Position numbers and translations under genes: made by a program. From assembly GCF_022865125.1 (NCBI RefSeq), contig NZ_CP094828.1, positions 2,294,001-2,358,000 on the forward strand: 64,000 nt of DNA, written 5' to 3'. This document shows, in pieces, positions 10,554 through 25,117 of the stretch. Under the pieces are notes generated by a model. It was not told where the DNA came from, made no database searches, and saw only the letters and a program-made list of their open reading frames with translations. The first letter of the stretch is position 1; every line of letters begins with the position of its first letter. This stretch comes from Acuticoccus sp. I52.16.1 (GTDB taxonomy: Bacteria; Pseudomonadota; Alphaproteobacteria; Rhizobiales; Amorphaceae).

Positions 10554-11762
10554 TTACAAACTGTTGCTGGTGAGAGGCAGACGCAGTCGCGCTCGCCCGT
10601 GCTCGGTCGCATTCACTCGCAAATTCATCGTGGTGTGGCGGCTCGCAACAGCGATGTCCTGATAGTAGGTCGCAATCGGGTTGTCGTCGTAAGCCCCACG
10701 AGCGCCGGCGAGATCCCAGACCGCCTGGGCGGCTTCGCGGACCAGTTTGCCGGCGTAGCTGCCGTTGCTTCGATAGTTCGAGCGCTCCAGCGGCGTAAGC
10801 TCCCGGCCGCTCGCGGCGAATGCCGCGATTTCCGCCGCGTCGGCTCTCAGCAACGCCTCGGCCGCCTGCAGCGCAGCGGATACCTCGCCGACCAGCATCT
10901 GCTCCGTCCCGTATGTCGCCGTTTCGAGATTGGTCATCAGGGAGCGGCGCTCGCGGGAATCCTCGAGGAACGTCTCGAACATGGCCTCCGCCATGCCGAT
11001 CAATGGTGAGGCCAGAAGAATGCCGAACGTCATATGGACGGGCAGCCGGTAGATCGCTGCCGTGTTCAAAGCCGCTCCTGGCGAGGGGCCTGTCTTCAAC
11101 GCGTCGATCGACAGGCTCATCGCGTCGGGCACGAAGTGGTCGTGCAGCGAGATGTCATGACTCCCCGAGCCCTGAAGTCCGATCGCGTGCCATGTGTCCT
11201 CGACATCGACCTCGGCGGTCGGGATCATGAAATAGCGCTCGTCCTCTCGGCCAGTGTCGCGCTTGACCGTCGTCGCCACGAGGCACCAGTCGGACCCGAT
11301 CACCCCGCTCACGAAGGGCCAACGACCGGTGACGCGGTAGCCGCCGTCCACCTTCTCGGCGCGGCCCAGCTTCGGAATGATGATGCCGGCGATCAGGGCG
11401 GTCGGATCCTGGCCCCAGATGGCCTCTTGTGCCGCTGCCGGCCAGCGCGCGAGCATGTAATTGTGCATGATATATTGGGCCAGGCACCAAGCCGTCGACG
11501 GGCAACCGCCGGCCGTCGGGATCAGCACGTCGATACAGGCACCGATAGGCGCCTGGGCTCCGCCGAAGCGACCGGGTTGAAAAAGGCGCTGCAAGCCAGA
11601 GCGGCGGATCACGTCCATCGTCTCCGGGATGATCGCCCGATTGGCGTAGGTCGCCGCGCGCTGGGTGCGCAACTGCGGAAGAAGATCCACGGCCCGCGCG
11701 ATCAGCAAATCTTCGTCCAGACCCGCAGCAGGCTGCCCCGGCCATTTGTGGATCACAGACAT
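10554..11762 (-). CDS. group D flavin-dependent monooxygenase, oxygenase component (HsaA/DszC/HpaB-like, acyl-CoA dehydrogenase fold)
   Basis: This 402-residue protein has the acyl-CoA dehydrogenase fold used by the oxygenase component of two-component flavin hydroxylases. Recognisable family segments are 'LFQPGRFGGAQAP', 'CPSTAWCLAQY', 'GYRVTGRWPFVSG', 'DTWHAIGLQGSGSHDI' and the C-terminal 'DDNPIATYYQDIAVASRHTTMN'. The catalytic glutamate of true acyl-CoA dehydrogenases is absent, as expected. It is paralogous to the gene at 12638, but no reductase gene lies beside it, so both may use the reductase at 13852. It follows the TetR gene on the same strand after 82 bp. The start at 11762 was chosen because upstream codons look non-coding. 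Confidence 0.82.
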   Translation of the reverse strand: MSVIHKWPGQPAAGLDEDLLIARAVDLLPQLRTQRAATYANRAIIPETMDVIRRSGLQRLFQPGRFGGAQAPIGACIDVLIPTAGGCPSTAWCLAQYIMHNYMLARWPAAAQEAIWGQDPTALIAGIIIPKLGRAEKVDGGYRVTGRWPFVSGVIGSDWCLVATTVKRDTGREDERYFMIPTAEVDVEDTWHAIGLQGSGSHDISLHDHFVPDAMSLSIDALKTGPSPGAALNTAAIYRLPVHMTFGILLASPLIGMAEAMFETFLEDSRERRSLMTNLETATYGTEQMLVGEVSAALQAAEALLRADAAEIAAFAASGRELTPLERSNYRSNGSYAGKLVREAAQAVWDLAGARGAYDDNPIATYYQDIAVASRHTTMNLRVNATEHGRARLRLPLTSNSL

Positions 11763-11844
11763 CGATAACGGCCCTTCATTCAATTTTCGGTCGGCAAGAG
11801 CCTCCACGCAATAAGTACGCCAGCGACCTGCAGGGCGGCTCCGA

Positions 11845-12483
11845 TCACAGGGCATCGGTCCCGAGGACGCGCACCGGCCGCGGCTCGAGCGTGGCGCCGA
11901 CCAGCCCACTCAGGGCCGAGGTCAGGGCCTCCCGACTGCGCTCGACCGGCATTTCGGACGCGGCGAGAACCGAGCCGATCAGTTGGCCGTAGATCAGCGC
12001 CGATGCCTCGAAGGCGACATCCTCGACCGGGCCAACGGGCCTCAACCCACCGCCGCGCACGCCGGCCTCGATCGCGCGTTGGACGAAGCCCGTGATTGCA
12101 CCGTGCAGTCGCTGCATCTCCGACAATATTCCTGCGTCGAACGGAGAGCGGCCGTACACGGCCATCCAGTAGCGTGGCGGGGGAAGCCCATACGCCTGAT
12201 GGTTGACGCAGAGGTCTACAAAGCCTTCCAGCCGCGCTGTGGCGGCGGACGTCTCCTCGATCGCGCTCAGATAGCCGATGACCTTCTGGTTCACGTCATT
12301 GATCGTGTCCGCGATGATCGACTGCTTCGCGCCGAAGTAGTGCGTGATGACGCCGGCGGAAACGCCCGAAACGTCGCTGATCTCGCGGATCGTGAGGTCT
12401 CGCCAGCCCTGAGCGCTCAAGATCACGACCACCGCGTCGATCACCTGACGGCGGCGGATGATCTCCATTCCGAGCTTTGGCAT
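11845..12483 (-). CDS. TetR/AcrR family transcriptional regulator (BetI-like)
   Basis: This 212-residue repressor has the N-terminal helix-turn-helix 'LTIREISDVSGVSAGVITHYFGAKQSIIADTI' at about residues 28-60, where 'G..THYF..K..L' is the recognition helix. The C-terminal ligand domain resembles BetI. It is divergent from the 12-gene run starting at 12638 and is followed by a paralogous oxygenase. A perfect 16-bp palindrome and a pair of 16-bp direct repeats lie in the shared 154-bp control region. It therefore probably represses both directions until a pathway compound binds. The start at 12483 (MPKLGMEII) gives the normal family length. Confidence 0.9.
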   Translation of the reverse strand: MPKLGMEIIRRRQVIDAVVVILSAQGWRDLTIREISDVSGVSAGVITHYFGAKQSIIADTINDVNQKVIGYLSAIEETSAATARLEGFVDLCVNHQAYGLPPPRYWMAVYGRSPFDAGILSEMQRLHGAITGFVQRAIEAGVRGGGLRPVGPVEDVAFEASALIYGQLIGSVLAASEMPVERSREALTSALSGLVGATLEPRPVRVLGTDAL

Positions 12484-12520
12484 GGGTGGGACCTTCGTTC
12501 CGTGTTCGCCGCCATGTGGC

Positions 12521-12557
12521 GCTGCACAAAAAATCACCCATGCTGCACAAAAGATCA
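12521..12557 (+). promoter_or_regulatory. two 16-bp direct repeats spaced by two helical turns
   Basis: GCTGCACAAAAAATCA (12521-12536) and GCTGCACAAAAGATCA (12542-12557) match at 15 of 16 positions. Their starts are 21 bp apart, which places them on the same face of the helix. They lie between the TetR start and the palindrome at 12579, so they look like tandem sites for a regulator. Confidence 0.5.
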
Positions 12558-12578
12558 AGTTGCCCCGGTTATGGGTCA

Positions 12579-12594
12579 CGTGTTCTAGAACACG
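12579..12594 (+). promoter_or_regulatory. perfect 16-bp palindrome, likely TetR operator
   Basis: CGTGTTCTAGAACACG is its own reverse complement. It lies 44 bp upstream of the TTG start of the operon at 12638 and 95 bp upstream of the TetR start. Size and placement fit a TetR-family operator controlling both divergent units. Confidence 0.6.
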
Positions 12595-12637
12595 CATTCC
12601 ATAAAGGCATCTCGATGCCCTCTTCCGGAGCCGACTC

Positions 12638-13852
12638 TTGAATAATGTCCTGCCCGCCGACACGGACGCTGGTCGATCCATCGCGTCCGAGGACGCGACC
12701 GACGCCGAGATCATCATCGCCCGTGCCAACGCCCTCACCGAGGTCGTAGGGGCCCATGCCGACGAGACCGAACGGCTTCGTCGTCCCGCCGACGCCAACT
12801 GCGCCGCCATCCGTCGGGCCGGGATCCATCGCATTTTTCAGCCCGCCCGTTTCGGTGGCGCCGAGGCGCCGTTTCGGACGGGGGTCGAGGTCTTGTCGGC
12901 GATCGGGCGCGGCTGCGGTTCGACCGCATGGGTGCTCGCTCAGAACATCACCCACAACATGATGGTCTCGCAGTGGCCCCAGGAAGCGCAGGAGACCGTT
13001 TGGGCAGACCCGACGGCGCTTCTATCCGGGATCCTGATTCCCGGAATCGGTAAGGCGACGGTCGTCGATGGCGGCTACCGGCTCTCCGGGCGCTGGCCCT
13101 TCGTCAGCGGCGTAGATGTCTGCGATTTCGCACTCTTCACCGCCTTTGTTCCAGATGGCGATCGCCTGATCGACCTGCATCTCATCCTGCCGCGCGAGCA
13201 GTTCGAGATCATCGACACCTGGCACGCCATCGGGCTCAAGGGCTCGGCCAGCAACGACGTGAGCATCGACGACGTTTTCGTGCCGCGGCACATGACCCTC
13301 GACGGCGAATTCCTGCGTGGGCGGGCGCCGCGATACGATGGAGAGCCGGTCGTCTTTCAGGCGCCGAACTACGCCATGTTCGGAAGCATGATCGGCTCGG
13401 CGCAGCTCGGCATCGCCGAAGGCGGCGTCGCGACCTACCTGGATCAGGCGGTCGGCCGGGTGGCACGCATGTCCACCAAGAAGGTCGCCGACTACAACAC
13501 CCACCATGTGAAGGTGGCTGAAGCGGTGACCTGCCTGAAGGCGGCGCGTCAGCTGATCTACGGAACCTGCGACCTCGCCACCGCGATCCTGGAGAGCGGC
13601 CGCCTGCCGACACTGGAGGAGCGTGCCCAGTTCCGTGCCGAGGCCGCGCTCGCCGGACAGCTCTCGGCCCGTGCCATGGCCGTGGTTTGGGACGCGGGCG
13701 GCGGCGGTGCGATCTACGACCGAAATCCGCTGTCACGCTACTACCGCGACATCAGTGCCGCGGCGCGCCACATCACCCAGAACTGGGATGCCAACCTCGG
13801 CACCTTCGGGCGCATGAAGCTCGGCCTGCCGATCGACAATCCGGCGCTGTGA
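12638..13852 (+). CDS. group D flavin-dependent monooxygenase, oxygenase component
   Basis: This 404-residue protein is the oxygenase half of a two-component FMNH2/FADH2-dependent monooxygenase with acyl-CoA dehydrogenase fold. Segments 'IFQPARFGGAEAPF', 'CGSTAWVLAQN', 'GYRLSGRWPFVSG', 'DTWHAIGLKGSASNDVSIDDVFVP' and 'YDRNPLSRYYRDISAAARHITQN' match the paralog at 10554. The best start is TTG at 12638 behind CGGAG. No ATG or GTG fits the conserved N-terminus. The stop overlaps the flavin reductase start (TGATG), which confirms the two-component arrangement. Relatives hydroxylate aromatics (HsaA, HpaB) or oxidise organosulfur compounds (DszC). The TauE-type exporter two genes downstream makes a sulfur substrate worth testing. 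Confidence 0.87.
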   Translation: MNNVLPADTDAGRSIASEDATDAEIIIARANALTEVVGAHADETERLRRPADANCAAIRRAGIHRIFQPARFGGAEAPFRTGVEVLSAIGRGCGSTAWVLAQNITHNMMVSQWPQEAQETVWADPTALLSGILIPGIGKATVVDGGYRLSGRWPFVSGVDVCDFALFTAFVPDGDRLIDLHLILPREQFEIIDTWHAIGLKGSASNDVSIDDVFVPRHMTLDGEFLRGRAPRYDGEPVVFQAPNYAMFGSMIGSAQLGIAEGGVATYLDQAVGRVARMSTKKVADYNTHHVKVAEAVTCLKAARQLIYGTCDLATAILESGRLPTLEERAQFRAEAALAGQLSARAMAVVWDAGGGGAIYDRNPLSRYYRDISAAARHITQNWDANLGTFGRMKLGLPIDNPAL

Positions 13853-14391
13853 TGGGGGCGGCTTACCTCCACATGGCCGATGAGACGAGCCCCCCGCAGC
13901 GCGACGCCTTCCTCGCGGCAATGCGCCGGGCGGCCTCACTCGTGAGCGTGGTCTCGACGGGGGCACCGCACGCCCGCCGCGCGCTCACGGTCGGCTCTTT
14001 CGCCTCCGTGTCGGCCGATCCTCCCCTCGTTTCCGTGTGTATCCGCGCGACGAGTCCGATGTGCGCGGCCCTCGAGGACCATACGCACTTCACGGTCCAC
14101 GTCCTCGGAGAGGACCACGCCCACGTTGCCGACACGTTCGCCGGCAGGCCACCGGAGGGAACGCCGTACGATTTCGACTGCGCAAGCTGGATCGACCGCG
14201 GCGACGGCCGCGAGCCGAGCCTGGAAGACGCGGCGATCGTGGTGGACTGTCTCAGGCTCGACGCGATCGCCCTCGGATCGCACCGGCTCTTCGTGGGGGA
14301 AGTGACCGACGTGGAGACCAGCGGGGCCATGCCGCTCCTCTATTTCGACCGCGACTATTGCGTCCCACTCGTCCGGACAGCCGGTCGATGA
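13852..14391 (+). CDS. flavin reductase (NADH:FMN/FAD oxidoreductase, HpaC/HsaB-like)
   Basis: This 179-residue split-barrel flavin reductase supplies reduced flavin to the oxygenase. 'RDAFLAAMRRAASLVSVVST', 'RALTVGSFASVSADPPLVSVCIRATSP' and 'FTVHVLGEDH' follow the flavin_reduct domain order. The TVGSFASVS..PPLV block binds the isoalloxazine ring. It overlaps the oxygenase stop by one base and overlaps the next gene's start (ATGA), so coupling is tight. The ATG at 13852 and another at 13873 are both possible. Confidence 0.9.
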   Translation: MGAAYLHMADETSPPQRDAFLAAMRRAASLVSVVSTGAPHARRALTVGSFASVSADPPLVSVCIRATSPMCAALEDHTHFTVHVLGEDHAHVADTFAGRPPEGTPYDFDCASWIDRGDGREPSLEDAAIVVDCLRLDAIALGSHRLFVGEVTDVETSGAMPLLYFDRDYCVPLVRTAGR

Positions 14392-15134
14392 CCTTCGATC
14401 CCACCCTGGTCGCCGCCGCATTCATCGCCGCGAGTTTCATCGGCCTGGCCAAAGGCGGATTGCATATCGCGTCGATGTTCGCGGTGCCGACGCTGTCGCT
14501 GGTGATGCCGCCGATCACCGCCGCGGCGACGTTGCTGCCGGTGCTGATGGCGAGCGACGTCGTCGGGCTTCTGTCCTACCGGCGTACCGTCGAGCGGCGC
14601 CTCGTGATCCTGCTGCTGCCGGCGGCGCTGGGTGGTGTCGCGCTCGGCTGGGCGACGGCGGCGATGGTTTCGACCGGCGCCGTCATGGTGGTCATCGGCC
14701 TAACCGGCGTCGTCTACTGCCTCGCCCGCTGGTTCGCCGTGCAATCGACCGGGGCCCGCCGCCCGTCGTCGCTCGCCGGGGTGTTCTGGGGGGCGCTGTC
14801 CGGCTTCACCAGCTTCGTGTCCCACGCCGGTGGCGCACCATGGCAGATCTACATGTCGCCGCAGCGCCTCGACCCGCCGACCTTCGCCGGGACGACGGTG
14901 GTGATCTTCTCAATCGTGAACGCCGTGAAAGTCGCCCCCTACGTGGCTCTCGGCGGATTTCAGACCCAGACGTTGCGCCTCTCGCTGGCGCTGATCCCCG
15001 TCGCTCTCGCAGCGGCATTCGCCGGCATCTGGCTGACCCGCACCGTCCCGGAGGCGGTCTTCTACCGCATCCTCGATGCGGCCCTGTTCCTCGTCTCGCT
15101 CAAGCTCATCCTCGACGGCGTGTTCGCCGGCTGA
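14388..15134 (+). CDS. sulfite exporter TauE/SafE family membrane protein
   Basis: This 248-residue inner-membrane protein has about eight hydrophobic segments. It carries the family pattern 'FIGLAKGGLHIASMFAVPTLSLVMPPITAAATLLPVLMASDVVGLLSYRR' in the first half and 'GALSGFTSFVSHAGGAPWQIYM' at the start of the second repeat. Members export sulfite, sulfoacetate or other small organic anions. It overlaps the reductase gene by four bases and precedes a TRAP binding protein by 16 bp. Its place in this operon suggests removal of an anion released by the monooxygenase, perhaps sulfite. Confidence 0.88.
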   Translation: MTFDPTLVAAAFIAASFIGLAKGGLHIASMFAVPTLSLVMPPITAAATLLPVLMASDVVGLLSYRRTVERRLVILLLPAALGGVALGWATAAMVSTGAVMVVIGLTGVVYCLARWFAVQSTGARRPSSLAGVFWGALSGFTSFVSHAGGAPWQIYMSPQRLDPPTFAGTTVVIFSIVNAVKVAPYVALGGFQTQTLRLSLALIPVALAAAFAGIWLTRTVPEAVFYRILDAALFLVSLKLILDGVFAG

Positions 15135-15150
15135 CCCAAGGACCTCGCCC

Positions 15151-16248
15151 ATGACGACCCCGAAAGCTCTCGCAAACGTTCTCCGCGCGACGGTGTTCTG
15201 CGCGCTCGCGGCACTGCCCTTCTCCATGCCGGTTGCGGCGCAGGAGGTCGCGATCGATTTCGCGTCCCACCTCGGTCCGAGCGGGCCGCAGATGCAGGTC
15301 TTCAAATGGTGGGCCGACGAAGTGAAGTCGCGCTCGGAAGGCCGCATCGAGGTGGTGAACTTCTTCTATTCCCAGTCGCTCGTGAAGGCGCCGGACCAAT
15401 TGGCCGCCGCCGGCGACGGGCGTGCGACGATCGTCTGGACCACGCCGTCCTACAACCCTTCCGACATGCCGCTCGCAACGATCACCGAGATCCCGTTCAT
15501 GACGGAGAACGTGGTCGCCTGGGGCCGGGCGCTCGAGGAGCTCTACGCCACGAATGCCGACGTGAAGGCGGAGTTCGACCAGCGCGGTGTGCAGCTTTTG
15601 TTTGCGCCGCCGGTCGGTGGCGCGTCGATCGGTGCCAAGATGCCGATCACCAAGCTGGAAGATCTCGAAGGCATGAAGATCCGCGCCTTCGGCTACCTCT
15701 CCCAGGCGCTCGCCGCAGCGGGAGCGAGCCCCACTGGGATGTCCGGCGCCGAGATCTACGAAGCGGTCAAGCGCGGCGTGCTCGATGCCTATTCCGGCGT
15801 GATCTTCGAGGTGCTCGGCGATCTGAAGCTCTACGAGGTCGGACCGCACCTCACGGGTGTCGGCATGGGGGCCTTTTCCCAGGGCGTCTTCCTGATGAAC
15901 AAGGACATTTACGACGGCCTGCCGGACGACCTGAAGGCGATCATCGGCGAGGTCAGCAAGGAAGCGAGCCTGCGCTCCGCGGCCGTGATGACCGAGGCCG
16001 AGACCGCCGTGTGCGACACCATTCTCGCGGCCGGCGGCACGGCCACTCTGCTGCCCGCCGCCGAGGTGGAGCGCTGGAAGGAGATGCTCGGCGACGACAT
16101 CCTGTCGAACTGGATCGCCGAACGTGAGGCGCGCGGCCTCCCGGCTCAGGCGGTCGCCGACCAATGGGCCGAACTCGTCGCCGAGTATGAGGCCGAAACC
16201 GACTACACGTCGGGTGTCGTTCAGTGCGCAGAGCGCAGCCCGTCCTGA
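15151..16248 (+). CDS. TRAP transporter substrate-binding protein DctP (system 1)
   Basis: This 365-residue periplasmic solute receptor starts with a signal peptide of about 30 residues ending in PVAAQ. 'FKWWADEVKSRSEGRIEV', 'LEDLEGMKIRAFGYLSQALAAAGASPTGMSGAEIYEAVKRGVLDAY' is the DctP core, with the conserved arginine (KIRAF) that usually salt-bridges a substrate carboxylate. It heads the first of two complete TRAP systems in this run. The ligand is unknown but is probably an organic acid. Confidence 0.92.
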   Translation: MTTPKALANVLRATVFCALAALPFSMPVAAQEVAIDFASHLGPSGPQMQVFKWWADEVKSRSEGRIEVVNFFYSQSLVKAPDQLAAAGDGRATIVWTTPSYNPSDMPLATITEIPFMTENVVAWGRALEELYATNADVKAEFDQRGVQLLFAPPVGGASIGAKMPITKLEDLEGMKIRAFGYLSQALAAAGASPTGMSGAEIYEAVKRGVLDAYSGVIFEVLGDLKLYEVGPHLTGVGMGAFSQGVFLMNKDIYDGLPDDLKAIIGEVSKEASLRSAAVMTEAETAVCDTILAAGGTATLLPAAEVERWKEMLGDDILSNWIAEREARGLPAQAVADQWAELVAEYEAETDYTSGVVQCAERSPS

Positions 16249-16277
16249 TCCCGACGATTTAGGGCACCAGATCCAAC

Positions 16278-16832
16278 GTGACCCAGCTTCCCGCTTCACC
16301 CACTGGCCCCACGCGTGAGCGTGACGTCACGCCGGTACGCCTCCTGTCCGCCGCGCTCACGATCCTGTCGACGCTGTGCGTCGTCGCCGTCGTCGGACTT
16401 GTCGTACTCGATGTGGCGGCGCGCAATCTCGCCGGTGCCTCCGTGCCCGGCGTCCTCGAGGTCACGGAGGTGACGCTCGTGGCCATCGTCTACCTCGGTC
16501 TGGCGATGGCGCAGCGCCGTCAGGAACATGTCAGCCTGTCGATGGTGGTCGACAGGCTGGGCGGCCGCTGGCAGCGCGGTGCCCACTTCATCGCGATCCT
16601 CGTCTGCCTCGGCGTCACGCTGTGGTTCGCCTGCGCGGCCTGGGACGCCGCCCTCACGGCCTTTGCGCGTGGGGAGTACCGGTTCGGCCTCGTCGCAGTG
16701 CCGATCTGGCCAGCACGGTTTGCGATTGCGATCGGGCTCACGGTCCTCATCCTGGAACTCCTGGTGGACCTGAAGCGCATTCTCAACGGTGCGCCGCTTC
16801 CCTCCAGCGACTTCACCGAGGGCGTGGCATGA
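16278..16832 (+). CDS. TRAP transporter small permease DctQ (system 1)
   Basis: This 184-residue membrane protein has four predicted helices, the usual DctQ layout. The typical second segment 'LEVTEVTLVAIVYLGLAMAQRRQEHVSLSMVVDRL' (E..E.....YLG.A.A.R...H) is present. A GTG at 16278 is the most likely start, 29 bp after dctP. The stop overlaps the DctM start (ATGA). Confidence 0.9.
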   Translation: MTQLPASPTGPTRERDVTPVRLLSAALTILSTLCVVAVVGLVVLDVAARNLAGASVPGVLEVTEVTLVAIVYLGLAMAQRRQEHVSLSMVVDRLGGRWQRGAHFIAILVCLGVTLWFACAAWDAALTAFARGEYRFGLVAVPIWPARFAIAIGLTVLILELLVDLKRILNGAPLPSSDFTEGVA

Positions 16833-18163
16833 TCCAGGCTCTCGGTCCGCTCGGTGTCGGCGGTGTCGCCCTCGCCGGTCTCGTCCTCCTTCTTGTCGTG
16901 CGTGTGCCGGTCGCGATCGCGCTGGCCGCGGTCGGCGGCGTGGGCCTCTGGGCCATTCGCAACGAGACGGTAGCCACCAAGACGCTGTCTGCCACCGCTT
17001 TCACGGCCACCAGCAGCATCGACCTGGTCGCGGTCCCGCTCTTCATCGCGATGGGGATGCTTGCGGTGAAGGCCGGGATCGCGACCGGTCTCTACGCGGC
17101 GGCGGCGCGCTGGCTCAGTCGGCTCCCCGCCGGGCTGGGCCTCGCTACGATTGTCGCCTGCGGCTTCTTCGCGGCCGTCACAGGGTCGAGCGTGGCGACC
17201 GCCGCGAGCATCGGACGGTTCGCGATCGCCGAGATGCGCCGCTACGGTTATGCCAACGACTTCTGCGCGGGGATCGTCGGCACCGCCGGGACGCTCGGGA
17301 TCCTGATCCCACCGTCCATCGTGCTCGTGCTCTACGGGATCGTCGCCGGCGAATCGATTGGCGCACTGCTGATCGCAGGCATCGTGCCGGGCCTCCTCTC
17401 GCTCGTGATGATGATGACGGCCGCGATGTTGCGCGTGGTCATCGATCCCGCCGTCGCGCCCCGCCGGGCAGCGGCCGATGTCGAGAGCGGCACCCTCGCG
17501 ACGGCGGTCAGCGGGGTGGGGAAGACGGGCGTCCTTTTCCTGGTGGCGGTCGGCAGCATCTATGCCGGCATCGCCACCCCGTCCGAAGCCGCGGCCCTCG
17601 GCGCCGTCGTCGCCTTCGTCTTCGCTCTGGCGGAGGCGCGGAAGGCCTGGGGGCCGGGTCTCGCCGGGATCGTGGAGGCGTTCAAGGAGACGGCCTCGCT
17701 GACCTCGATGACCTTCTTCATCGTCGTCGGGGCCTCGATCTTCACCGCCTTTCTCTCACTGGCGGGCGTGCCGCGAGTTCTGTCCGAGTTCGTGCTCGCC
17801 CTCGATGCTCCGGCGTGGCTGGTGATGGTCGCGATCCTCGCGATCTACCTGCCGCTCGGCATGTTCCTGGACGGGATCTCGATCCTATTGATCACCACGC
17901 CGCTGGTCTATCCACTCGTCACAAATCTCGGTTACGACGGCGTCTGGTTCGGCGTGATGCTCGTGAAGATGATCGAGATCGGCCTCATCACGCCCCCCGT
18001 CGGGATCAACGCGTTTGTCATCTCCGGGCGAGCGACCGGCGTGCGTGTCGAAGAGGCATTTCGCGGTCTCGCCTGGTTCATCCCGTTCGAACTCGCCACC
18101 GTTGCGATCCTGTTCGCCTTTCCGGATCTCGTGACCTTCCTGCCCAGGAGCATGGGCCAATGA
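16829..18163 (+). CDS. TRAP transporter large permease DctM (system 1)
   Basis: This 444-residue permease has about 12 membrane segments and carries out Na+-driven uptake with DctQ and DctP. Hallmarks are 'VPLFIAMGMLAVKAGIA', 'GFFAAVTGSSVATAASIGRFAIAEMRRYGY', 'GTLGILIPPSIVLVLYGI', 'YAGIATPSEAAALG' and the C-terminal 'GLITPPVGINAFVISGRA'. It starts four bases before the dctQ stop and overlaps the following M24 gene by four bases, so import and breakdown are made together. Confidence 0.94.
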   Translation: MIQALGPLGVGGVALAGLVLLLVVRVPVAIALAAVGGVGLWAIRNETVATKTLSATAFTATSSIDLVAVPLFIAMGMLAVKAGIATGLYAAAARWLSRLPAGLGLATIVACGFFAAVTGSSVATAASIGRFAIAEMRRYGYANDFCAGIVGTAGTLGILIPPSIVLVLYGIVAGESIGALLIAGIVPGLLSLVMMMTAAMLRVVIDPAVAPRRAAADVESGTLATAVSGVGKTGVLFLVAVGSIYAGIATPSEAAALGAVVAFVFALAEARKAWGPGLAGIVEAFKETASLTSMTFFIVVGASIFTAFLSLAGVPRVLSEFVLALDAPAWLVMVAILAIYLPLGMFLDGISILLITTPLVYPLVTNLGYDGVWFGVMLVKMIEIGLITPPVGINAFVISGRATGVRVEEAFRGLAWFIPFELATVAILFAFPDLVTFLPRSMGQ

Positions 18164-19356
18164 GCCTTCCCACGCGCCGCCCCGCCCTCGATCGCCCGAC
18201 ACTCGAGCGCCGCCTTGCCGCGATCCGCGAGCGTATGGCCGACGCCGAGATCGACTGTCTCGTCGTCGTCGGCCGCGGCAACATCGCCGAGTTCGGCGCC
18301 CAGCATTACCTCTCCGGCTACACCCCGGTACTGCGTAACGCGGCCACCATCGTCGCTCTGTCGGGCGAGCCGATCCTGGCCGTGACCACGCCGTCCGACA
18401 TCGCCCTCAGTGCGGGTCGGACCCCACTGCGCGACGTCCGGGTCGCAGCCTTCGGATCGGCACCCAACAGCCTCGCCGCATTGATCGCGGCCATGGCCGG
18501 GGAGGGGACCGTCGGTGTGGTCGGGCTGGAAGATGTCGTCCCCGCGGCAGAGTTCGCGCGCTGGGTGGCCGCCGCTCCGGCTGCCACCTTCGTCGACGGA
18601 GCCGATGTGCTGATGCCGATCAAGATGGTGAAGAGCGCCGACGACATCGTCGCGATGCAACACGCGGGACGGACTGCGGACGAGGCCTTCGAGGTCTTCA
18701 CGGCATCGCTCCGAGACGGCAAGACGCTCGCCGCCGCGGCCGGAGATGCCGAGGCGGCGCTGCGCGCCTCGGGCGCACACGAAATTCTCGTCTATGCCAG
18801 CCCGGGGCCGCATTTCCTGCATCGGCCCGACGGAGTGCCGCCGCGGGATGGTGATCTTCTCACGGTGTTCGTCGAGTTTTCCGATCCGGACGGATACTGG
18901 GTCGAACTTGCCCGACTGGTGACGGTCGGAACGCTCGGACCCGACCAGATCGCCGTCGCCGCGGCGGCTGTCGAAGCGATCGAAGTGGCCGGCGCCGCTC
19001 TGCGCCCTGGCCGCGCGGCCTCCGAGGCCTTCGCCGACATTGCGGCGGTACTGCGTCGCCACGGCGTCACCTCCGGCCTCTGGGCCGGTCACGGCGTCGG
19101 CATCGACCATGATCTCCCGGTCATCGGCGGGGATGACCCGACGCCGCTCGCCGCCGGTATGGTCGTCGCCCTCCACCCGCACATCGTCACGGCCGACGGC
19201 GGCGTAGGCGCCTGCCTCTGCGACACCTTCGTCATCGGTGAAGAGGGGACCACGCCGCTCTCCCGTCTGCCGCGAACGCCGGTCGCACTCGCCGTCCCTC
19301 CCGCCGCACCGACTGCCGGTGCTGCGCAAATTCCTTCCCCTGTCCGCCAGCCTTGA
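18160..19356 (+). CDS. M24 (creatinase/Xaa-Pro peptidase-like) family protein with altered metal site, copy 1
   Basis: This 398-residue protein has a creatinase N-terminal domain and a pita-bread M24 domain. The five usual metal ligands (D, D, H, E, E) are changed. The first aspartate block reads 'VFVEFSDPDGYWVELAR' (E and E), the histidine is kept in 'GHGVG', the usual EPG glutamate is a histidine in 'VVALHPHI', and the last one lies in 'LCDTF'. The same pattern occurs in the second M24 gene at 22267. This argues against an ordinary aminopeptidase P and for a small-molecule amidohydrolase-type role, as in creatinase or ectoine hydrolase. It directly follows and overlaps a TRAP transporter, which probably imports its substrate. 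Confidence 0.8.
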   Translation: MSLPTRRPALDRPTLERRLAAIRERMADAEIDCLVVVGRGNIAEFGAQHYLSGYTPVLRNAATIVALSGEPILAVTTPSDIALSAGRTPLRDVRVAAFGSAPNSLAALIAAMAGEGTVGVVGLEDVVPAAEFARWVAAAPAATFVDGADVLMPIKMVKSADDIVAMQHAGRTADEAFEVFTASLRDGKTLAAAAGDAEAALRASGAHEILVYASPGPHFLHRPDGVPPRDGDLLTVFVEFSDPDGYWVELARLVTVGTLGPDQIAVAAAAVEAIEVAGAALRPGRAASEAFADIAAVLRRHGVTSGLWAGHGVGIDHDLPVIGGDDPTPLAAGMVVALHPHIVTADGGVGACLCDTFVIGEEGTTPLSRLPRTPVALAVPPAAPTAGAAQIPSPVRQP

Positions 19357-19363
19357 GGACTCT

Positions 19364-20380
19364 ATGACACCCTTCTGGACCCGCCTCGCCGCCGCCGCGG
19401 CAATCGCTTCCCTTGCCGGGACCGCCGTCGCGCAGGAGTGCGCCGACACCCAGATCCGGCTGAGCTACGGCTCACCGATCGCCTCCGACTGGACCAAGTG
19501 GGTCGAGGCCTTCAAGGCCGAAGTCGAGGACAAGAGCGAAGGCCGGATCAGCATCCGTGCCTACTCGGACCGGCAGCTCTTTTCTGGCAGCCCGAAGGCC
19601 GAGATCGACGGTGTGCTCGACGGTATCGCCGATGCGACGTTGACGTCGACGCTTCTCGTCGCGCTGTTCCTCGACAACCGGTTCGATCTCATCAACATGC
19701 CGTTCCTGGTGCCGAGCCACGAGGTGGCCGCACGCGTCGTCGACGGAGAGATCGGCACGATCATGGAAGGCTGGGCGCGCGAGAAGGGGCTGGAGCCGAT
19801 CGGTTGGGGCGTCAACGGCTTCCGCCAGCTGACGAACAAGTCCAAAAAGGTGAAGACGCCGGCCGATATGAAAGGCATGAAGATCCGCGTTGCGGGATCG
19901 AAGCTTTTCATCCGGGCGGTCGGCCTCCTCGGCGCAGATCCGATCACGATGAGCTTCAGCGAACTCTATCCGGCCCTGCAACAAGGCGTTGTCGAGGGTC
20001 AAGAAAATCCGCTGTCTGAAATCGAAACGTCAAGCTTCTACAACGTTCAGGACTATGTCGCGATCTGGAACTACGTCTATGATCCGCTGATCCTGTTGAT
20101 GAACGAAGCCACTTTCGCCGGCATGTGTGAGGGCGATCAGCAGATCCTGCGCGATGCGGCCGTCGTCGCACGCGACACCCAGCGCGCCATCGCCGTCGAG
20201 GCCGACAAGACGATGCCGGAGCTTCTGCGGACCGAGCGAGGCATGACCGTGACGCCGTTCGAAGAGGTGGACTTCGAAGCATTCAGGGAGATCGTCTATC
20301 CGACGATCCGCAAGGAGTGGGCGCCGATCGTCGGGGAGGAGAACCTCGAGAAGCTCGAGGCCGCCGTTGCAGCCGAATAA
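19364..20380 (+). CDS. TRAP transporter substrate-binding protein DctP (system 2)
   Basis: This 338-residue receptor has a cleavable signal peptide (MTPFWTRLAAAAAIASLAGT, then AVAQE). 'FKAEVEDKSEGRISIRAYSDRQLF', 'MKGMKIRVAGSKLFIRAVGLLGADPITMSFSELYPALQQGVVEGQENPL' is the classical DctP core with the carboxylate-binding arginine in KIRV and the 'GVVEGQENP' motif. It begins 7 bp after the first M24 gene, with a GAGGA ribosome site. It differs clearly in sequence from system 1, so the two receptors likely bind different ligands. Confidence 0.93.
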   Translation: MTPFWTRLAAAAAIASLAGTAVAQECADTQIRLSYGSPIASDWTKWVEAFKAEVEDKSEGRISIRAYSDRQLFSGSPKAEIDGVLDGIADATLTSTLLVALFLDNRFDLINMPFLVPSHEVAARVVDGEIGTIMEGWAREKGLEPIGWGVNGFRQLTNKSKKVKTPADMKGMKIRVAGSKLFIRAVGLLGADPITMSFSELYPALQQGVVEGQENPLSEIETSSFYNVQDYVAIWNYVYDPLILLMNEATFAGMCEGDQQILRDAAVVARDTQRAIAVEADKTMPELLRTERGMTVTPFEEVDFEAFREIVYPTIRKEWAPIVGEENLEKLEAAVAAE

Positions 20381-20912
20381 GTCCTCGGTCGGCCCTTCAA
20401 ACGGGAGCGGTACGCCGCCGCTCCCGTCCACGATCGACGAGGGCGGCCGCGTGGATGACGGCGGATTTGCTCCGGAGGATTGGCTGCTCTTCGCGCTGCT
20501 GTCCGGAATCGTGGGGCTGTCTGCCGCTTCTGTCGTGGCGCGCTACGCCCTGCCGGGTGTCAACATCGCCTACCTCGACATCCTCTTGCCGGATCTCTTC
20601 GTGTGGCTCGCCCTCGTTGCAGCGGCCGCCGGCGTACGCCACGGCGCGCACCTCGGCCTGACGCTCTTGCACGATTGTGCTCCGCCCGTCTTCAAGCGAC
20701 TGCTCGACTGGTTCTACGTCCTCGCCGGCATCCTCTTCTTCGGCGTTGTGCTCTGGACCGGGTGGGAACTGACCGCTGCACAGATGCGTCGCGGCACGAT
20801 GTCGGCATTCGGTTACCCGGCGTGGATCGTCACGGCGGCGCTGCCGGTGGCTTCGGCGATCGCTCTGGCACGCTTCCTCGGCGTCATGCGTAAGCTCCTC
20901 AAAGCATCATGA
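20367..20912 (+). CDS. TRAP transporter small permease DctQ (system 2)
   Basis: This is a four-helix small permease of up to 181 residues. The start is uncertain. A TTG at 20367 with GAGG six bases upstream overlaps the dctP end. A GTG at 20451 would give a 153-residue protein without the polar 28-residue leader. 'VNIAYLDILLPDLFVWLALVAAAAGVRHGAHLGLTLLHDC' occupies the conserved second-helix region. The stop overlaps the DctM start (ATGA). Confidence 0.85.
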   Translation: MQPNKSSVGPSNGSGTPPLPSTIDEGGRVDDGGFAPEDWLLFALLSGIVGLSAASVVARYALPGVNIAYLDILLPDLFVWLALVAAAAGVRHGAHLGLTLLHDCAPPVFKRLLDWFYVLAGILFFGVVLWTGWELTAAQMRRGTMSAFGYPAWIVTAALPVASAIALARFLGVMRKLLKAS

Positions 20913-22255
20913 GCGTCGTCGCCGTTGCTCTCCTGGGCGGGTTCTTCGTGACCCTGGTCCTGGGGCTCCCGATCTACCTGGCCCTCGGTGCCACGTCGAT
21001 CGCCGCGATCATCCTGCTCGACCTCGAACCGCTGCGCGTGGTCGCGAGCACGGTTTCATCGAGCATCAACTCGTTCAGTCTCATCGCGATCCCAGTCTTC
21101 GTGCTGGCCGGCAACATCCTTGCGGACTCGCAGATCGGCAGCCGGCTCATCGAACTCGCCCTCGCGATCGTGGGGCGGCTTCGCGCCGGTCTTGCCTTCG
21201 TCACCGTCGGCGTCGGCCTCTTCTTCGCGGGCATCTCCGGCTCCGGCCCGGCGGATACGGCGGCGTTGGGGGCACCGCTGATTCCGGCGATGGAGAAACG
21301 CGGCTACAGTCGGGCCTTCGCCAGCGCTCTCGTTGCGGCGACGGGGGCACTCGGCCTCGTCTTCCCGCCATCGCTCGGTTTTATCATCTACGGCGTCGTC
21401 GCGCGTGTTTCGGTCAGCAAGCTGTTCGTGGCGGGCGTCCTGCCGGGGATCCTCCTGGCGTTGGCGCTCGCGGTCGTCGCCTACGTCAAGGCGCGCCGCA
21501 ACGGGTGGGATCAAGGCGACGCGCCGGCGGCCGGCGTCGATGGCGGGGATTCGGTTGCAACCGCGCCGAACGAACTTGCATGCGGCTATGTTCGCAACGT
21601 CGCCCGCGCCTTCGGCCGCGCCTTCTGGGGATTGCTCGCACCGGTGATCATACTCGGCGGCCTCTATGGTGGGGTTTTCACGCCGGGTGAAGTGGCGACC
21701 GCCGTCGTCATCTATGCGCTGTTCGTCGCTGTCGTCGTGTACCGCGACCTGTCGGTTCGGGACGTCGCACGGATCATAATTCGGTCGGCCCGCACCACGG
21801 GCGTGATCATGATCATCGTCGCCTCCGCCTCGGTGTTCTCCTTCCTCCTCAACACGCAAGGCATCGCGGCGGCCTTCGGCGGCATGCTGTCGACGCTGTC
21901 GGACAATCCGCTCCTCTTCCTTCTGGCGGTGAACGTCATCGTCCTTGTCGCCGGCTGCGTGATCGACGGGATCTCCATTACCTACATCTTCGCGCCGATC
22001 ATGCTGCCGATCGCGATACGCCTCGGGGTCGACCCGACACATTTCGGCGTGATCCTGCTCGTGAACATCGCGATCGGCCAGACGACGCCGCCGGTCGGTG
22101 TGAACCTCTTCGTCGCGTGCGCGGTCGGCAGGGTGTCGCTGGCGCAAATCTCGCGGCAAATGCCGGTGATCTTCGTCGCGCAGCTCGTCACGCTCGCACT
22201 CGTGACGCTGGTCCCCGGCCTATCGCTCTGGTTGCCGCGAATGTTCGGCCTTTAA
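20909..22255 (+). CDS. TRAP transporter large permease DctM (system 2)
   Basis: This 448-residue permease has the full set of DctM motifs: 'FSLIAIPVFVLAGNILADSQIGSRLI', 'GLFFAGISGSGPADTAALGAPLIPAMEKRGYSRAFASALVAATGALGLVFPPSLGFIIYGV', 'GVFTPGEVATAVVIYAL' and 'GQTTPPVGVNLFVACAV'. It overlaps dctQ by four bases and is followed after 11 bp by the second M24 gene. The order dctPQM-M24 is therefore repeated twice in succession. Confidence 0.94.
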   Translation: MSVVAVALLGGFFVTLVLGLPIYLALGATSIAAIILLDLEPLRVVASTVSSSINSFSLIAIPVFVLAGNILADSQIGSRLIELALAIVGRLRAGLAFVTVGVGLFFAGISGSGPADTAALGAPLIPAMEKRGYSRAFASALVAATGALGLVFPPSLGFIIYGVVARVSVSKLFVAGVLPGILLALALAVVAYVKARRNGWDQGDAPAAGVDGGDSVATAPNELACGYVRNVARAFGRAFWGLLAPVIILGGLYGGVFTPGEVATAVVIYALFVAVVVYRDLSVRDVARIIIRSARTTGVIMIIVASASVFSFLLNTQGIAAAFGGMLSTLSDNPLLFLLAVNVIVLVAGCVIDGISITYIFAPIMLPIAIRLGVDPTHFGVILLVNIAIGQTTPPVGVNLFVACAVGRVSLAQISRQMPVIFVAQLVTLALVTLVPGLSLWLPRMFGL

Positions 22256-22266
22256 AGGAATCCGCG

Positions 22267-23397
22267 ATGATGGATTATGCCAGCCACGCCGAGCGCGACC
22301 GCCGCTGGGCCGCGCTTCGGGTCGCGATGCGGGAGGATGGGCTCGACGCTCTCGTCGTGGCCGGATCGGACTTCCGCGGGCAGAAGGGTGGCCTGCGCTA
22401 CGTCACCGACATGCAGCCTTTCCACCGCTTCGGTTATGCGGTGCTGCCTGTGGAGGGGGACCCCGTCGCCGTCCTGCACCCCGTCCTCGCCTACGACACG
22501 CTGAGCGACTGGGTGAGCGACAAGCGGTTCTCTCCGACCCCGGGGTCGACGCTGGCTCAGGTCATCGCCGCATTTCCGCGTCATCACCGGGTCGGCCTCG
22601 TTGCGATGGATCAGGCCATGCGCGTCAGCGACCATGCCGCGTTGGTCGAAGCGCTGCCGATGACCCGGTTCGTCTCCGCGGACGCGATGTTCGAGCGGGT
22701 GCGCCGCTTCAAGAGCCCCGCCGAACTCGTCGGCGTTGCGGAGGCTGCCACCATCGCCGACGCCTGCTTTGCGCGACTTCTCGACATCGCGCGTCCGGGG
22801 CGAACCCATCTCGACGTTCACGCCGAAATGTTGCGGACGGCGACCGCGCTGGGCGCCGTCGAGACGCTTTTCCTGACGATGTACTCGGAGAAGGGGCCGG
22901 GTGGCGCCGTGCCGCGGATCACAGCGCCGGCCGCGCGTGAGATCGCACCGGACGCGCCCTTCTGCTTCTCTCTGGAGTTGACCGGCCCATCGGGACATTG
23001 GGTCGAGTTCTGCCGCATCGTCGGCTTTTCCGGCGCTTCGGCCGGCGAGATGGCCGAGCTTTGCGAGGCGAGCACGACAGCGGGCCTCAGGGCGCTCTGC
23101 CCCGGCACGGTCGGGCGCGAGGTGCAGCGCGCACTGGAGGAGGGGGTCGATCCCGCCTTCGAGGTGTGCCCTGCGTCCGGCCACGCCATCGGCCAGGACG
23201 TGATCGAGCAGCCGATGATCGTCCGGGGCGATCCGGGTGAGCAAACCTTCGAGCCGGGGATGGTCGTCGCGCTTCACCCGATGATTCATTCGAAGCTTGC
23301 CGGACCGCTCGGTTACGTCGCCGATACCTTCGTCATGGAAGCCGAGCGGCCACGGCAACTGTCCCGCTTCCCCCGCCAGGCCTTCATGGCCCTATGA
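22267..23397 (+). CDS. M24 (creatinase-like) family protein with altered metal site, copy 2
   Basis: This 376-residue protein is paralogous to the gene at 18160. The metal-site positions read 'FSLELTGPSGHWVEFCR' (E, E), 'SGHAIG' (H), 'VVALHPMI' (H in place of E) and 'VADTFVM' (D in place of E). The shared pattern shows that these are inherited, functional substitutions and not random loss. The N-terminal domain is creatinase-like ('LDALVVAGSDFRGQKGGLRYVTDM'). The ribosome site AAAGGA precedes the ATG at 22267 (another ATG follows at 22270). It probably hydrolyses a C-N bond in a compound brought in by TRAP system 2. The substrate is unknown. Confidence 0.8.
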   Translation: MMDYASHAERDRRWAALRVAMREDGLDALVVAGSDFRGQKGGLRYVTDMQPFHRFGYAVLPVEGDPVAVLHPVLAYDTLSDWVSDKRFSPTPGSTLAQVIAAFPRHHRVGLVAMDQAMRVSDHAALVEALPMTRFVSADAMFERVRRFKSPAELVGVAEAATIADACFARLLDIARPGRTHLDVHAEMLRTATALGAVETLFLTMYSEKGPGGAVPRITAPAAREIAPDAPFCFSLELTGPSGHWVEFCRIVGFSGASAGEMAELCEASTTAGLRALCPGTVGREVQRALEEGVDPAFEVCPASGHAIGQDVIEQPMIVRGDPGEQTFEPGMVVALHPMIHSKLAGPLGYVADTFVMEAERPRQLSRFPRQAFMAL

Positions 23398-23408
23398 GGA
23401 CCAAGTTC

Positions 23409-24158
23409 ATGAAACCACAGGACTGGACCGGCGCGACGGCGCTCGTGACCGGCGCGTCCAGCGGGATCGGCGCGGCCATAGTCCGGGCACTCGCGGGGAT
23501 CGGGCTAACGGTCGTCGGGGTCGGTCGCGACGGCGCAGCGCTCGATGCCCTCGGCGGCGAATGTGGGATGATTCCCATCGCCTGTGACATCAGGGACCGG
23601 GAGCGAATGGCCGCCGAACTGGCGCCCTATGCGGTCGACGTCCTCGTCAACAACGCGGGTGTGATCCCGTCCCACAGCAAGGTTCAGGATCAGCCCGTCC
23701 CGGACATCGACGCAATGATCGACGTCAATTTCCGCGCGGCGGTGCTCCTGACGCAGCATTGCCTCGCGGGTATGCTGGAACGCCGGCGTGGACACATCGC
23801 CTTCATCGGCTCCAGCGCGGGCTTTGTCCCGCACGGCCAACTCGCAGTGTATGGGGCTACGAAAGCCGGCGTGTCGCTCTTCGCCCAGGCGCTGCGATGC
23901 GATCTACTCGGCACGAACGTGCGTGTCACTGAGATCGCGCCGGGGCGCGTCGCGACCCGCCTCTATCGCGACGCGATGGACATGGAGGCGGCGCGCCGAA
24001 CCTTCTACGAGGCCTACGAGCCGCTTCTCCCGGACGACGTGGCCGCAACACTGGTCGCGGCGCTGACCATGCCGGCGCACGTCGACCTGTCTCGGATTGA
24101 CATTTTCCCGACGACGCAGGCGGTCGGTGGCTCTCAGATCGTCAGTCCGGATGTGTAG
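23409..24158 (+). CDS. SDR family oxidoreductase, last gene of the 12-gene run
   Basis: This classical SDR of 249 residues has TGASSGIG at 14-21, NNAG at 81-84, S135, Y148 and K152 (YGATK). 'VGVGRDGAALDAL' after beta-2 has an arginine and suggests NADP(H). The start ATG at 23409 has GAGGA eight bases upstream. An earlier ATG at 23394 overlaps the M24 stop (ATGA) and is also possible. It is the last gene in the collinear run and could oxidise an alcohol produced from the imported compound. Confidence 0.86.
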   Translation: MKPQDWTGATALVTGASSGIGAAIVRALAGIGLTVVGVGRDGAALDALGGECGMIPIACDIRDRERMAAELAPYAVDVLVNNAGVIPSHSKVQDQPVPDIDAMIDVNFRAAVLLTQHCLAGMLERRRGHIAFIGSSAGFVPHGQLAVYGATKAGVSLFAQALRCDLLGTNVRVTEIAPGRVATRLYRDAMDMEAARRTFYEAYEPLLPDDVAATLVAALTMPAHVDLSRIDIFPTTQAVGGSQIVSPDV

Positions 24159-24199
24159 ACTCGCGTGGAACGAGGGACCCCGTTAGAGGGGAGAGTCGG

Positions 24200-25117
24200 T
24201 TACGGTCCCGGACGCTGCGCGACGGCATGTGCTGCGCCGCCCGCGAACAGCTCGTCCGCGACACGGCGCACGATCTCCTCGACCGCGAGCACCGCAGGGA
24301 GCCGAGTTCCGCGCAGCCTCGCAATGGTGACCTCGCGCGCAAGGCCGGCGATCGGCGCCTGAACGAGGTGTGCGTCGAGCGCCTGGCGCCGGCTCGCAGC
24401 GACGATGGCCGCGACCTCGCCCGTGGCGAGCAGCGCGGGCAGCGCGGTCGGCGCATCGACCTCCACCCTCGGCGCCACGGAAAGACTGCGCGCGGCGGCG
24501 GCCCGCTCGACCAGACGGCGAAGACCATGCCGCGGGCTCGGGAGGGCGAGCGGCAGGGCGAGCGCGGCCTCGATCGTCACCGCGTGATCCGCCACCAACG
24601 TCTGCGAGCCGACGAGGACGAGGTCATCGCGCCAGAACGGCCCCGCGGCGTGGATCGGCAGAATCTCGTCGCGGTAGAGCGATGCGAGATCGAGCGTTCC
24701 CGACGCGAGGCCATCTGCCAGATCGCCGCTTTGCGCACCGACCAGCGTGAGGCCGACATCGGGAAACCGGGCCGCCACCTCGGCGACGGTCGGAGGCGCG
24801 ATCGAGGGTGCCAGGCTCGCGAGAAGCCCCAGCCGCACCCGGCCACGGATCGCGGAAGTCGGCACTTTGATCCCACGCTCGAGCGCACGCAGCGAGGCGA
24901 GCACCTGCTCGGCCCGACGCGACAGTTCGCGTCCCTTTTCGGTCGGATGCATTCCGCGGCCGTCGCGCTCGAAGAGGCGGCACCCGTACTCGGCCTCGAG
25001 CGCGGCGACGTCGGCGGTGAGAGCGGAGGGTACCGTGCCAAGAAGCCGGGCGGCCTTGGTCGCGCTGCCGGTTTCGGCGATGACGATGACGCTGCGCAGA
25101 TGACGGAAGGTCGGCAT
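24200..25117 (-). CDS. LysR family transcriptional regulator (1)
   Basis: This 305-residue LysR-type regulator has the N-terminal winged helix-turn-helix at about residues 1-62 ('FRHLRSVIVIAETGSATKAARLLGTVPSALTADVAALEAEYGCRLFER', with A..L...PSA.T..V..LE...G..LFER). A co-inducer domain follows from about residue 90. It converges on the SDR at the end of the 12-gene run with a gap of only 41 bp. The start at 25117 (MPTFRHL) matches the family N-terminus. Its target is not clear from position. The AT-richer stretch at 25118-25165 probably holds its promoter. Confidence 0.88.
   Translation of the reverse strand: MPTFRHLRSVIVIAETGSATKAARLLGTVPSALTADVAALEAEYGCRLFERDGRGMHPTEKGRELSRRAEQVLASLRALERGIKVPTSAIRGRVRLGLLASLAPSIAPPTVAEVAARFPDVGLTLVGAQSGDLADGLASGTLDLASLYRDEILPIHAAGPFWRDDLVLVGSQTLVADHAVTIEAALALPLALPSPRHGLRRLVERAAAARSLSVAPRVEVDAPTALPALLATGEVAAIVAASRRQALDAHLVQAPIAGLAREVTIARLRGTRLPAVLAVEEIVRRVADELFAGGAAHAVAQRPGP

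Follow-up and report, generated by a model that had tools for sequence, protein, structure and literature searches.

What holds together a run of twelve genes that sets two tripartite ATP-independent periplasmic (TRAP) importers and two M24-family proteins beside a two-component flavin monooxygenase? The run lies at positions 12,638 to 24,158 of a 64,000-nucleotide stretch of the genome (5.53 Mb) of Acuticoccus sp. I52.16.1, the whole of which is called the window here (GC 0.61-0.71 in 2-kb steps), and a preliminary description had read it as one pathway that imports a compound, oxidises it with an organosulfur-type enzyme, exports a sulfur anion and hydrolyses a C-N bond. All twelve plus-strand genes are present in the order then given, each with a Pfam match (Acyl-CoA_dh_2, Flavin_Reduct, TauE, DctP, DctQ, DctM, Peptidase_M24, DctP, DctQ, DctM, Peptidase_M24, adh_short). 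As judged by gene neighbourhoods in other genomes, the conserved unit is ox2-tetR-ox1-reductase and not the twelve-gene run as a whole; two of its members, the second oxygenase gene ox2 and the TetR-family regulator gene tetR, lie on the minus strand ahead of the run and were omitted when it was first delimited (Table 1). A search of the open literature, with most subscription journals outside its scope, did not return an account of these genes as a set; as evidence of absence this is weak.

The oxygenase pair, the reductase and the TetR gene

The first two genes of the run, which overlap by 1 base, encode an acyl-CoA-dehydrogenase-type oxygenase (ox1) and an adjoining, separate flavin reductase, both above the Pfam cut-off (PF08028 and PF01613), the arrangement of a group D two-component monooxygenase. 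The paralogue ox2, 39% identical to ox1, lies divergently upstream of the run. Against the HsaA model (NF045629, cut-off 450) ox1 and ox2 scored 232.7 and 220.6 bits, against C2-HpaH (NF045920, cut-off 650) 184.5 and 187.9 bits, and against DszC (NF043015, cut-off 850) 29.7 and 43 bits; both oxygenases stay below the equivalog cut-offs and are therefore neither HsaA nor HpaH. The reductase falls under the cut-offs of the HpaC and RutF models (65-99 bits). The best solved relatives of ox1 are HsaA, 2or0 (an unnamed hydroxylase), Rv3094c, XiaF (143.9 bits) and C2-HpaH, with DszC far lower. Alignment of ox2 with C2-HpaH (2jbr) placed a histidine in both the His120 and the His396 column (residue numbers derived from the chain numbering); the corresponding positions, His106 and His378 of ox1, are invariant across ox1, ox2 and one relative (L040). 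The roles of the two histidines in C2-HpaH are assumed here. According to PMC5481743, XiaF has a histidine above the flavin that is highly conserved with C2-HpaH, and the relatives of the family include indole-forming, indole-acetate, naphthoate, hydroxyphenylacetate, nitrotoluene, phenol and dibenzothiophene oxygenases. Since both oxygenases side with the aromatic hydroxylases and keep the C2-HpaH histidines, ring hydroxylation would be their likeliest chemistry.

The organosulfur reading of ox1 was rejected on these model scores and on the solved relatives, among which DszC ranks far below HsaA. On two further sulfur-related models, SfnB and 3-sulfinopropanoyl-CoA desulfinase, ox1 scored 36.5 bits (cut-off 430.9) and 40.8 bits (cut-off 600).

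Genome contigs were scanned with an alignment of ox1, ox2 and one relative and with two short peptide patterns, and 11 loci were recovered. Genes like ox1 and like ox2 are both present in eight of them (L047-L053 and L055, called pair loci below), a fraction that is not an unbiased pairing rate because the scan used the two peptide patterns. By title, the hosts are three Bradyrhizobium, Paraburkholderia graminis, an Ochrobactrum, two unnamed Rhizobiales and one Solirubrobacterales bacterium; the last (L051), the only pair locus from Actinomycetota, is by its title a metagenome-derived contig, so its host is less sure. A TetR match accompanies the pair in seven of the eight (37-49% identity; none in L048), as does a reductase match (none in L052). 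The order differs in L053, where ox1 and ox2 converge and the reductase and a TauE gene diverge from tetR. In a tree of 40 oxygenases, nine ox1 rows form one clade (93/96, just under the star awarded by the tool) and nine ox2 rows of the same loci form another (94/86; 100/99 with L054), with identical branching among the five closest loci in the two clades. By these separate clades and the co-occurrence of the genes, ox1 and ox2 are old paralogues that have been kept together. Among more distant oxygenase relatives the pair was absent from all 18 stretches inspected (18 of 22 places outside the own genome, the four lowest-scoring left out), several of which end at short contigs.

The genes around the pair were grouped into families read on representatives from L049, L050, L051, L052 and L053, the other loci being assigned by clustering. 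On the ox2 side, five of the eight pair loci carry an amidase and an ATP-binding cassette (ABC) importer whose receptor is XylF-like. Four of the eight have an RraA-like aldolase and an M24 protein on the ox1 side, with a zinc alcohol dehydrogenase in between in two of the four; an M24 protein follows the reductase in four of the eight. A sugar-type ABC importer stands beside the pair in seven. L052 has another sugar-type ABC importer and a 2-oxoglutarate-Fe(II) oxygenase, L053 an RbsB-like importer and TauE, and L051 a TauD-type dioxygenase. The importer families vary among the pair loci, and the importer thus differs from host to host. Homologues of the TRAP, M24 and short-chain dehydrogenase/reductase (SDR) genes of the run were found in none of the eight (E 1e-8, searched over about 10 kb on each side, only 2.3 kb downstream in L051), so that for the run as a whole the lack of a conserved twelve-gene neighbourhood, named at the outset as a refuting outcome, is what was observed.

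Between the divergent tetR and ox1 genes lies the proposed control region. Some tens of bases ahead of ox1, five relatives share a dyad of the AACGTAyGTT type, with one base deviating in L049, and the best dyads of the relatives reach 5 to 87 of 300 dinucleotide shuffles; no dyad was found in the control regions of L051 and L052. The dyad of the window, GTGTTCTAGAACAC, differs from the type of the relatives and, at 46 of 300 shuffles, is not beyond chance. A TetR operator in this region is a reasonable guess. Two 16-bp direct repeats, GCTGCACAAAAAATCA and GCTGCACAAAAGATCA, 21 bp apart, are also seen in the gap, at 12521-12557.

The run, its importers and its M24 proteins

The eleven junctions of the run are as tight as first described, with a 14-base overlap and a 29-base gap as the extremes (in order, with the chosen starts: -1, -4, +16, +29, -4, -4, +7, -14, -4, +11, -4 bases), and five of the eleven are 4-base overlaps. 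Across 10300-25600 a single promoter-like site was found, at 11200, and none inside the run; terminator-like sites in the same interval numbered 6, against 6.6 in shuffles (standard deviation 2.6), and are not above chance. Two complete PQM sets score above the Pfam cut-off. The idea of a single tight plus-strand run coupling import, by two complete TRAP systems, to a two-component flavin monooxygenase is supported, and so is that of a repeated dctPQM-M24 module with diverged receptors: P1 and P2 share 24% identity over only 154 residues, M24a and M24b 29%, and M1 and M2 30%. Judged by the sequences of the copies, the duplication is old. The proximity of TRAP and M24 genes is by itself unremarkable, because the genome is very rich in TRAP genes: when the 59 DctM places (68 matches minus second fragments, one weak match and one on another contig) and nine M24 genes of the genome were considered, at least two M24 genes lay less than 3 kb from a DctM gene in 10.7% of random placements, which is within chance. 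The short overlaps and the repeated order are stronger evidence for a unit than this proximity.

The nearest solved chains of P1 are 7nr2 (118 bits) and 7nsw (113 bits), and those of P2 are 4p8b (174.7 bits) and 4nq8, with SiaP chains further down. 7nr2 and 7nsw are presumably TarP-type aromatic-acid receptors; no paper on 7nr2-7nte was found. Aligned to 7nr2, 7nsw, 7nrr, 5iga and 4n6d, P1 retains the carboxylate-binding Arg; its predicted model had a mean predicted local distance difference test score (pLDDT) of 42 and was not used. According to PMC3610893, TarP has nanomolar affinity for coumarate, caffeate, ferulate and cinnamate, a conserved Arg is proposed to hold the carboxylate, and TRAP substrates are as a rule carboxylates. 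Import of an aromatic acid through P1 is a guess from sequence proximity.

The TauE/SafE-family membrane protein is assigned by a Pfam family match, with no NCBIfam match. A 48% homologue follows the reductase in one pair locus (L053), and none was seen in the other seven. Among the 15 genes that extend from ox2 to the LysR-type regulator gene, Pfam named no sulfur gene besides this family match.

Both M24 proteins depart from their family at the metal site. Of the canonical Asp, Asp, His, Glu, Glu set the His is kept in M24a and M24b: the second Asp is replaced by Glu, the first Glu by His and the second Glu by Cys or Ala, while the column of the first Asp holds Phe/Ser or Glu, depending on a gap in the alignment. 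The Glu, His and Cys could bind a metal in another way. Departures from the canonical ligands, of several kinds, are seen in six of the nine M24 proteins of this genome (L009-L017), among them M24a and M24b; the stretches ALHP and WVE are common to M24a and M24b and absent from the other seven. The creatinase-like protein L015 shows the second-Asp change at the same position, but Glu where M24a and M24b have His, creatinase itself being outside the alignment. The M24 protein of the pair loci keeps all five canonical ligands. A predicted model of M24a (mean pLDDT 70.7, weaker in the N-terminal part) matches the M24 pita-bread fold (4ege: Z 29.1, root mean square deviation (rmsd) 4.3, 346 residues) and ties among prolidase, ectoine hydrolase and creatinase (Z 28-29).

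Ectoine hydrolase was rejected as an identity for either protein, the scores being 25-30 bits against cut-offs of 613 (TIGR02993) and 575 (NF038259), and the dimethylsulfoniopropionate lyase DddP was not among their model matches at E 0.001, an absence only. The placement of both proteins in the M24 family stands, while the C-N hydrolysis first ascribed to them is doubtful: loss of the canonical ligand set in both makes hydrolysis of the canonical metal type unlikely, and the ectoine hydrolase scores are low. Other non-peptidase M24 enzymes offer a precedent for rewired or metal-independent action. Our best guess for M24a and M24b is a site that is rewired or independent of metal; catalysis may also have been lost.

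That TRAP and M24 genes form a unit conserved in other genomes was considered and rejected. M24a alone had no match in 396 other genomes of the order at 1e-40. A profile of M24a and M24b had none in 296 other genomes of the order at 1e-40 and none in 397 other genomes drawn from the phylum at 1e-33 (the rows shown being of the same order); at 1e-25 it had matches in 14 of 288 other genomes of the class. Among the 14 stretches inspected, from 13 of these 14 genomes (a fragment in G050 was left out), one (L119, 28% to M24a) has a similar EF/VEL/IHP pattern and lies near genes for an ABC transporter and a flavin adenine dinucleotide (FAD) enzyme, and another (L125) has TRAP genes near an M24 protein with four of the five ligands. 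No plasmid match to M24a or M24b reached 60% identity; the surroundings inspected were those of two M24b matches and of one match of the pair-loci M24. On a Leisingera thetidis plasmid (L102, 6258-10248), genes for the TRAP small and large subunits, an M24 protein and a receptor are consecutive and adjoin galactarate genes; this M24 protein has Lys at one metal-site Glu in the alignment.

Table 1. Features of the run and of the genes that flank it, in order of position, with the evidence for each
Feature	Position	Strand	Basis
ox2, second group D (acyl-CoA-dehydrogenase-type) flavin monooxygenase, paralogue of ox1	10554..11762	-	PF08028 70.5 bits
TetR-family regulator, BetI-like	11845..12483	-	PF00440, PF13977; BetI 76.5 bits, cut-off 201.3
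tetR-ox1 divergent intergenic region, proposed control region	12484..12637	.	14-bp perfect dyad 12580-12593
ox1, oxygenase component of group D flavin monooxygenase, TTG start	12638..13852	+	PF08028 81.8 bits; HsaA 232.7 bits; solved relatives
Flavin reductase	13852..14391	+	PF01613 115.6 bits
TauE/SafE-family membrane protein	14388..15134	+	PF01925 94 bits
DctP1 (P1), TRAP receptor	15151..16248	+	PF03480 139.8 bits
DctQ1	16278..16832	+	PF04290 75.5 bits
DctM1 (M1)	16829..18163	+	PF06808 258.5 bits
M24a, creatinase/prolidase-fold protein without the canonical metal-ligand set	18160..19356	+	PF00557 74.4 bits; ligand columns; model
DctP2 (P2), TRAP receptor	19364..20380	+	PF03480 221.7 bits
DctQ2	20367..20912	+	PF04290 66.6 bits
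DctM2 (M2)	20909..22255	+	PF06808 356.7 bits
M24b, of the same unusual M24 type as M24a	22267..23397	+	PF00557 64.3 bits; ligand columns
SDR	23394..24158	+	PF00106 147.4 bits
LysR-type regulator, last gene of the low-GC3 block	24200..25186	-	PF00126, PF03466; GC3 0.790

Origin of the block and competing explanations

The GC content at third codon positions (GC3), listed for 36 window genes (the list omits some small genes and those from about 40.5 to 50.1 kb), is 0.87-0.93 in eight upstream genes, has a mean of 0.830 over the 15 genes from ox2 to the LysR-type regulator, and returns to 0.89-0.90 in the next three. The best low-GC3 segment of 6-20 genes, located unprompted, is exactly this block (10554-25186) and was matched by 0 of 400 permutations; the comparison of its mean with the remainder (0.830 against 0.882, p = 8e-5) was made after the block had been seen. 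No match to ox1 was found in any of seven genus-mates at E 1e-60, and matches in five of 149 other relatives are at 32-43% identity. The low-GC3 block and the absence of ox1 from genus-mates fit acquisition of the block as a unit, and the segment of about 10.55-25.2 kb was probably acquired in this way.

The explanation that we put first, and which in our estimate has about an even chance of being right, is an acquired, substrate-inducible catabolic island under TetR control, in which organic acids are imported by TRAP systems and oxidised by two flavin monooxygenases that share a reductase. A TetR repressor would lie where two transcripts diverge, one running leftwards as tetR-ox2 and the other rightwards as ox1-reductase-TauE-(TRAP-M24)x2-SDR. 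Organic acids, perhaps one of them aromatic, would enter through the two TRAP systems, and the single reductase would supply reduced flavin to both paralogous group D oxygenases, which would carry out ring hydroxylation at two sites or as two consecutive steps. M24a and M24b would act on the imported compound or on its oxidised product through a rewired or metal-independent site, and the SDR would handle an alcohol or a ketone.

Several observations weigh against this explanation. TauE, within the block, has a GC3 of 0.896, four genes further off are as low as the block (0.819-0.844), and transfer is not the only possible cause of a low GC3. An empty site could not be established: the surroundings of a RuBisCO-like gene of the window, mostly upstream of it, were compared in five genus-mates, and no other window gene matched there, apart from weak matches about 7 kb off in one of them (G004). 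In P1, Ser-Asp takes the place of the Gly-Arg of 7nr2, 7nsw, 7nrr and 5iga (Gly-Val in 4n6d), and because of this replacement an aromatic ligand for P1 is a guess. The M24 proteins of the relatives are canonical and not close to M24a and M24b, the two oxygenase trees are not fully parallel (the ox1 of the window is sister to five loci, its ox2 to L053), and the operator evidence is weak. Finally, conservation does not link the TRAP and M24 parts to the oxygenases, since no homologue of them was found in the eight pair loci.

This last point is also the strength of a composite origin, in which an unrelated TRAP-M24-SDR module that scavenges carboxylic acids has become attached to the conserved oxygenase module (ox2-tetR-ox1-reductase, with TauE), so that the two share a transcript and serve separate pathways. 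The TRAP-M24 part was not seen in any of the eight pair loci, whose importers vary; the two widest gaps of the run, 16 and 29 bases, flank P1; and the TRAP-QM-M24-P set of the Leisingera plasmid adjoins galactarate genes. Set against these are the single compositional block formed by the 15 genes and the M24 gene that follows the reductase in four of the eight pair loci, which suggests that an M24 partner may not be random. We regard a composite run as the less probable account, although one to be taken seriously.

A bolder claim, which we offer tentatively and think somewhat improbable, is that the locus represents an undescribed oxidative module: an anciently diverged, obligate pair of ox1 and ox2 with one reductase, one TetR regulator and swappable importers, passed between distant bacteria. 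In this genome it would be coupled to two M24 enzymes that make up a new subtype (His in place of Glu in the metal site, ALHP and WVE in common) and cleave the oxidised TRAP-imported substrate by a rewired or metal-free site.

Unlikely, to our mind, is a route for an N-heterocycle or aryl amide, in which ox1 and ox2 would oxygenate a nitrogen-containing ring and hydrolases (an amidase and a canonical M24 protein in the relatives, M24a and M24b here) would open the lactam or amide. It would account for the amidase in five and the M24 gene in four of the eight pair loci, and for the relationship of ox1 to the indole hydroxylase XiaF; PMC5481743 places indole-acetate monooxygenases in the same family, and PMC3187862 describes DoeA as an M24 protein able to open a ring. 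No amidase, however, is among the 15 block genes by Pfam, the chemistry of M24a and M24b is assigned only as a prediction, and TRAP substrates, according to PMC3610893, are carboxylates as a rule.

An organosulfur route, with DszC-like oxidation, export of the sulfur anion through TauE/SafE and C-N hydrolysis by M24, is very improbable: it can point to a TauE/SafE-family gene in the run and in one pair locus, to a TauD-family gene in one (L051) and to weak matches of ox1 to DszC, SfnB and sulfinopropanoyl-CoA desulfinase (30-41 bits), as expected within one superfamily, but these scores lie far under the cut-offs and under the 232.7 bits of HsaA, and TauE was not seen in seven of the eight pair loci.

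In place of the guess at sulfur chemistry there is now a unit open to testing: two oxygenases that stay together in distant hosts, with importers and hydrolases that vary. An oxidation in two steps or at two sites is suggested by the retention of both paralogues next to a single reductase, and the M24 pair would add to the non-peptidase chemistries of the M24 fold.

Neighbouring genes and known systems

Just before ox2, at 6505-10509 on the plus strand, lie genes for a Baeyer-Villiger-type flavin monooxygenase, the A and B subunits of a 3-oxoacid CoA-transferase and an SDR, all of normal composition (GC3 0.89-0.93). The best model for the monooxygenase is PtlE (233 of 1100 bits), and it matches one of seven genus-mates, partly, at 47%. 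The RuBisCO-like protein (26344-27597) is closest to OiaX (462 bits, cut-off 700), has three matches in this genome and is present in seven of eight genus genomes, its own included. Further along, a nitrile hydratase alpha chain (42229-42900; PF02979, 271.5 bits) is encoded among small genes downstream of a gene for a molybdopterin-cofactor-binding protein (37770-40466), and a 1312-aa histidine kinase that contains several PAS domains (PAS_3 in six stretches) stands beside two LuxR-type response regulators (51207-56840). Two rve-type transposase genes are present, one in 44134-45576 and one in 58685-63949; after the second come tRNA-Ser (60087) and a helicase-like gene, in the 2-kb steps where GC is lowest (0.61-0.62), possibly the boundary of a mobile element.

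Like HsaAB and p-hydroxyphenylacetate hydroxylase C2/C1, the system combines an acyl-CoA-dehydrogenase-type oxygenase with a separate flavin reductase and keeps the two C2 histidines; unlike them, it has two paralogous oxygenases beside one reductase and one TetR gene, with scores below the cut-offs. From the indole-type group D oxygenases XiaF and IacA the comparison was made with XiaF, a distant relative of ox1, and not with IacA. DszC belongs to the same superfamily as ox1, at 29.7 bits of a cut-off of 850. TeaABC of Halomonas is presumably a TRAP system. DoeA/EutD and TeaABC offer a parallel (PMC3187862), as a ring hydrolase of the M24 fold and an importer dedicated to the substrate of that enzyme occur in one bacterium. 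The M24a model also fits EutD (Z 29.1, rmsd 5.0, 348 residues), tied with other M24 folds, whereas M24a and M24b reach only 25-30 bits on the DoeA/EutD models (cut-offs 575 and 613). P1 resembles the receptor of TarPQM of Rhodopseudomonas palustris, as described in PMC3610893, in being a DctP protein with the carboxylate-binding Arg, and differs from the presumed TarP-type chains in its Ser-Asp instead of their Gly-Arg. A group D two-component monooxygenase with an importer is of a known kind; what stands out here is the ox2-tetR-ox1-reductase core, within a probably acquired block of 15 genes and with a genome-specific attachment of TRAP and M24 genes.

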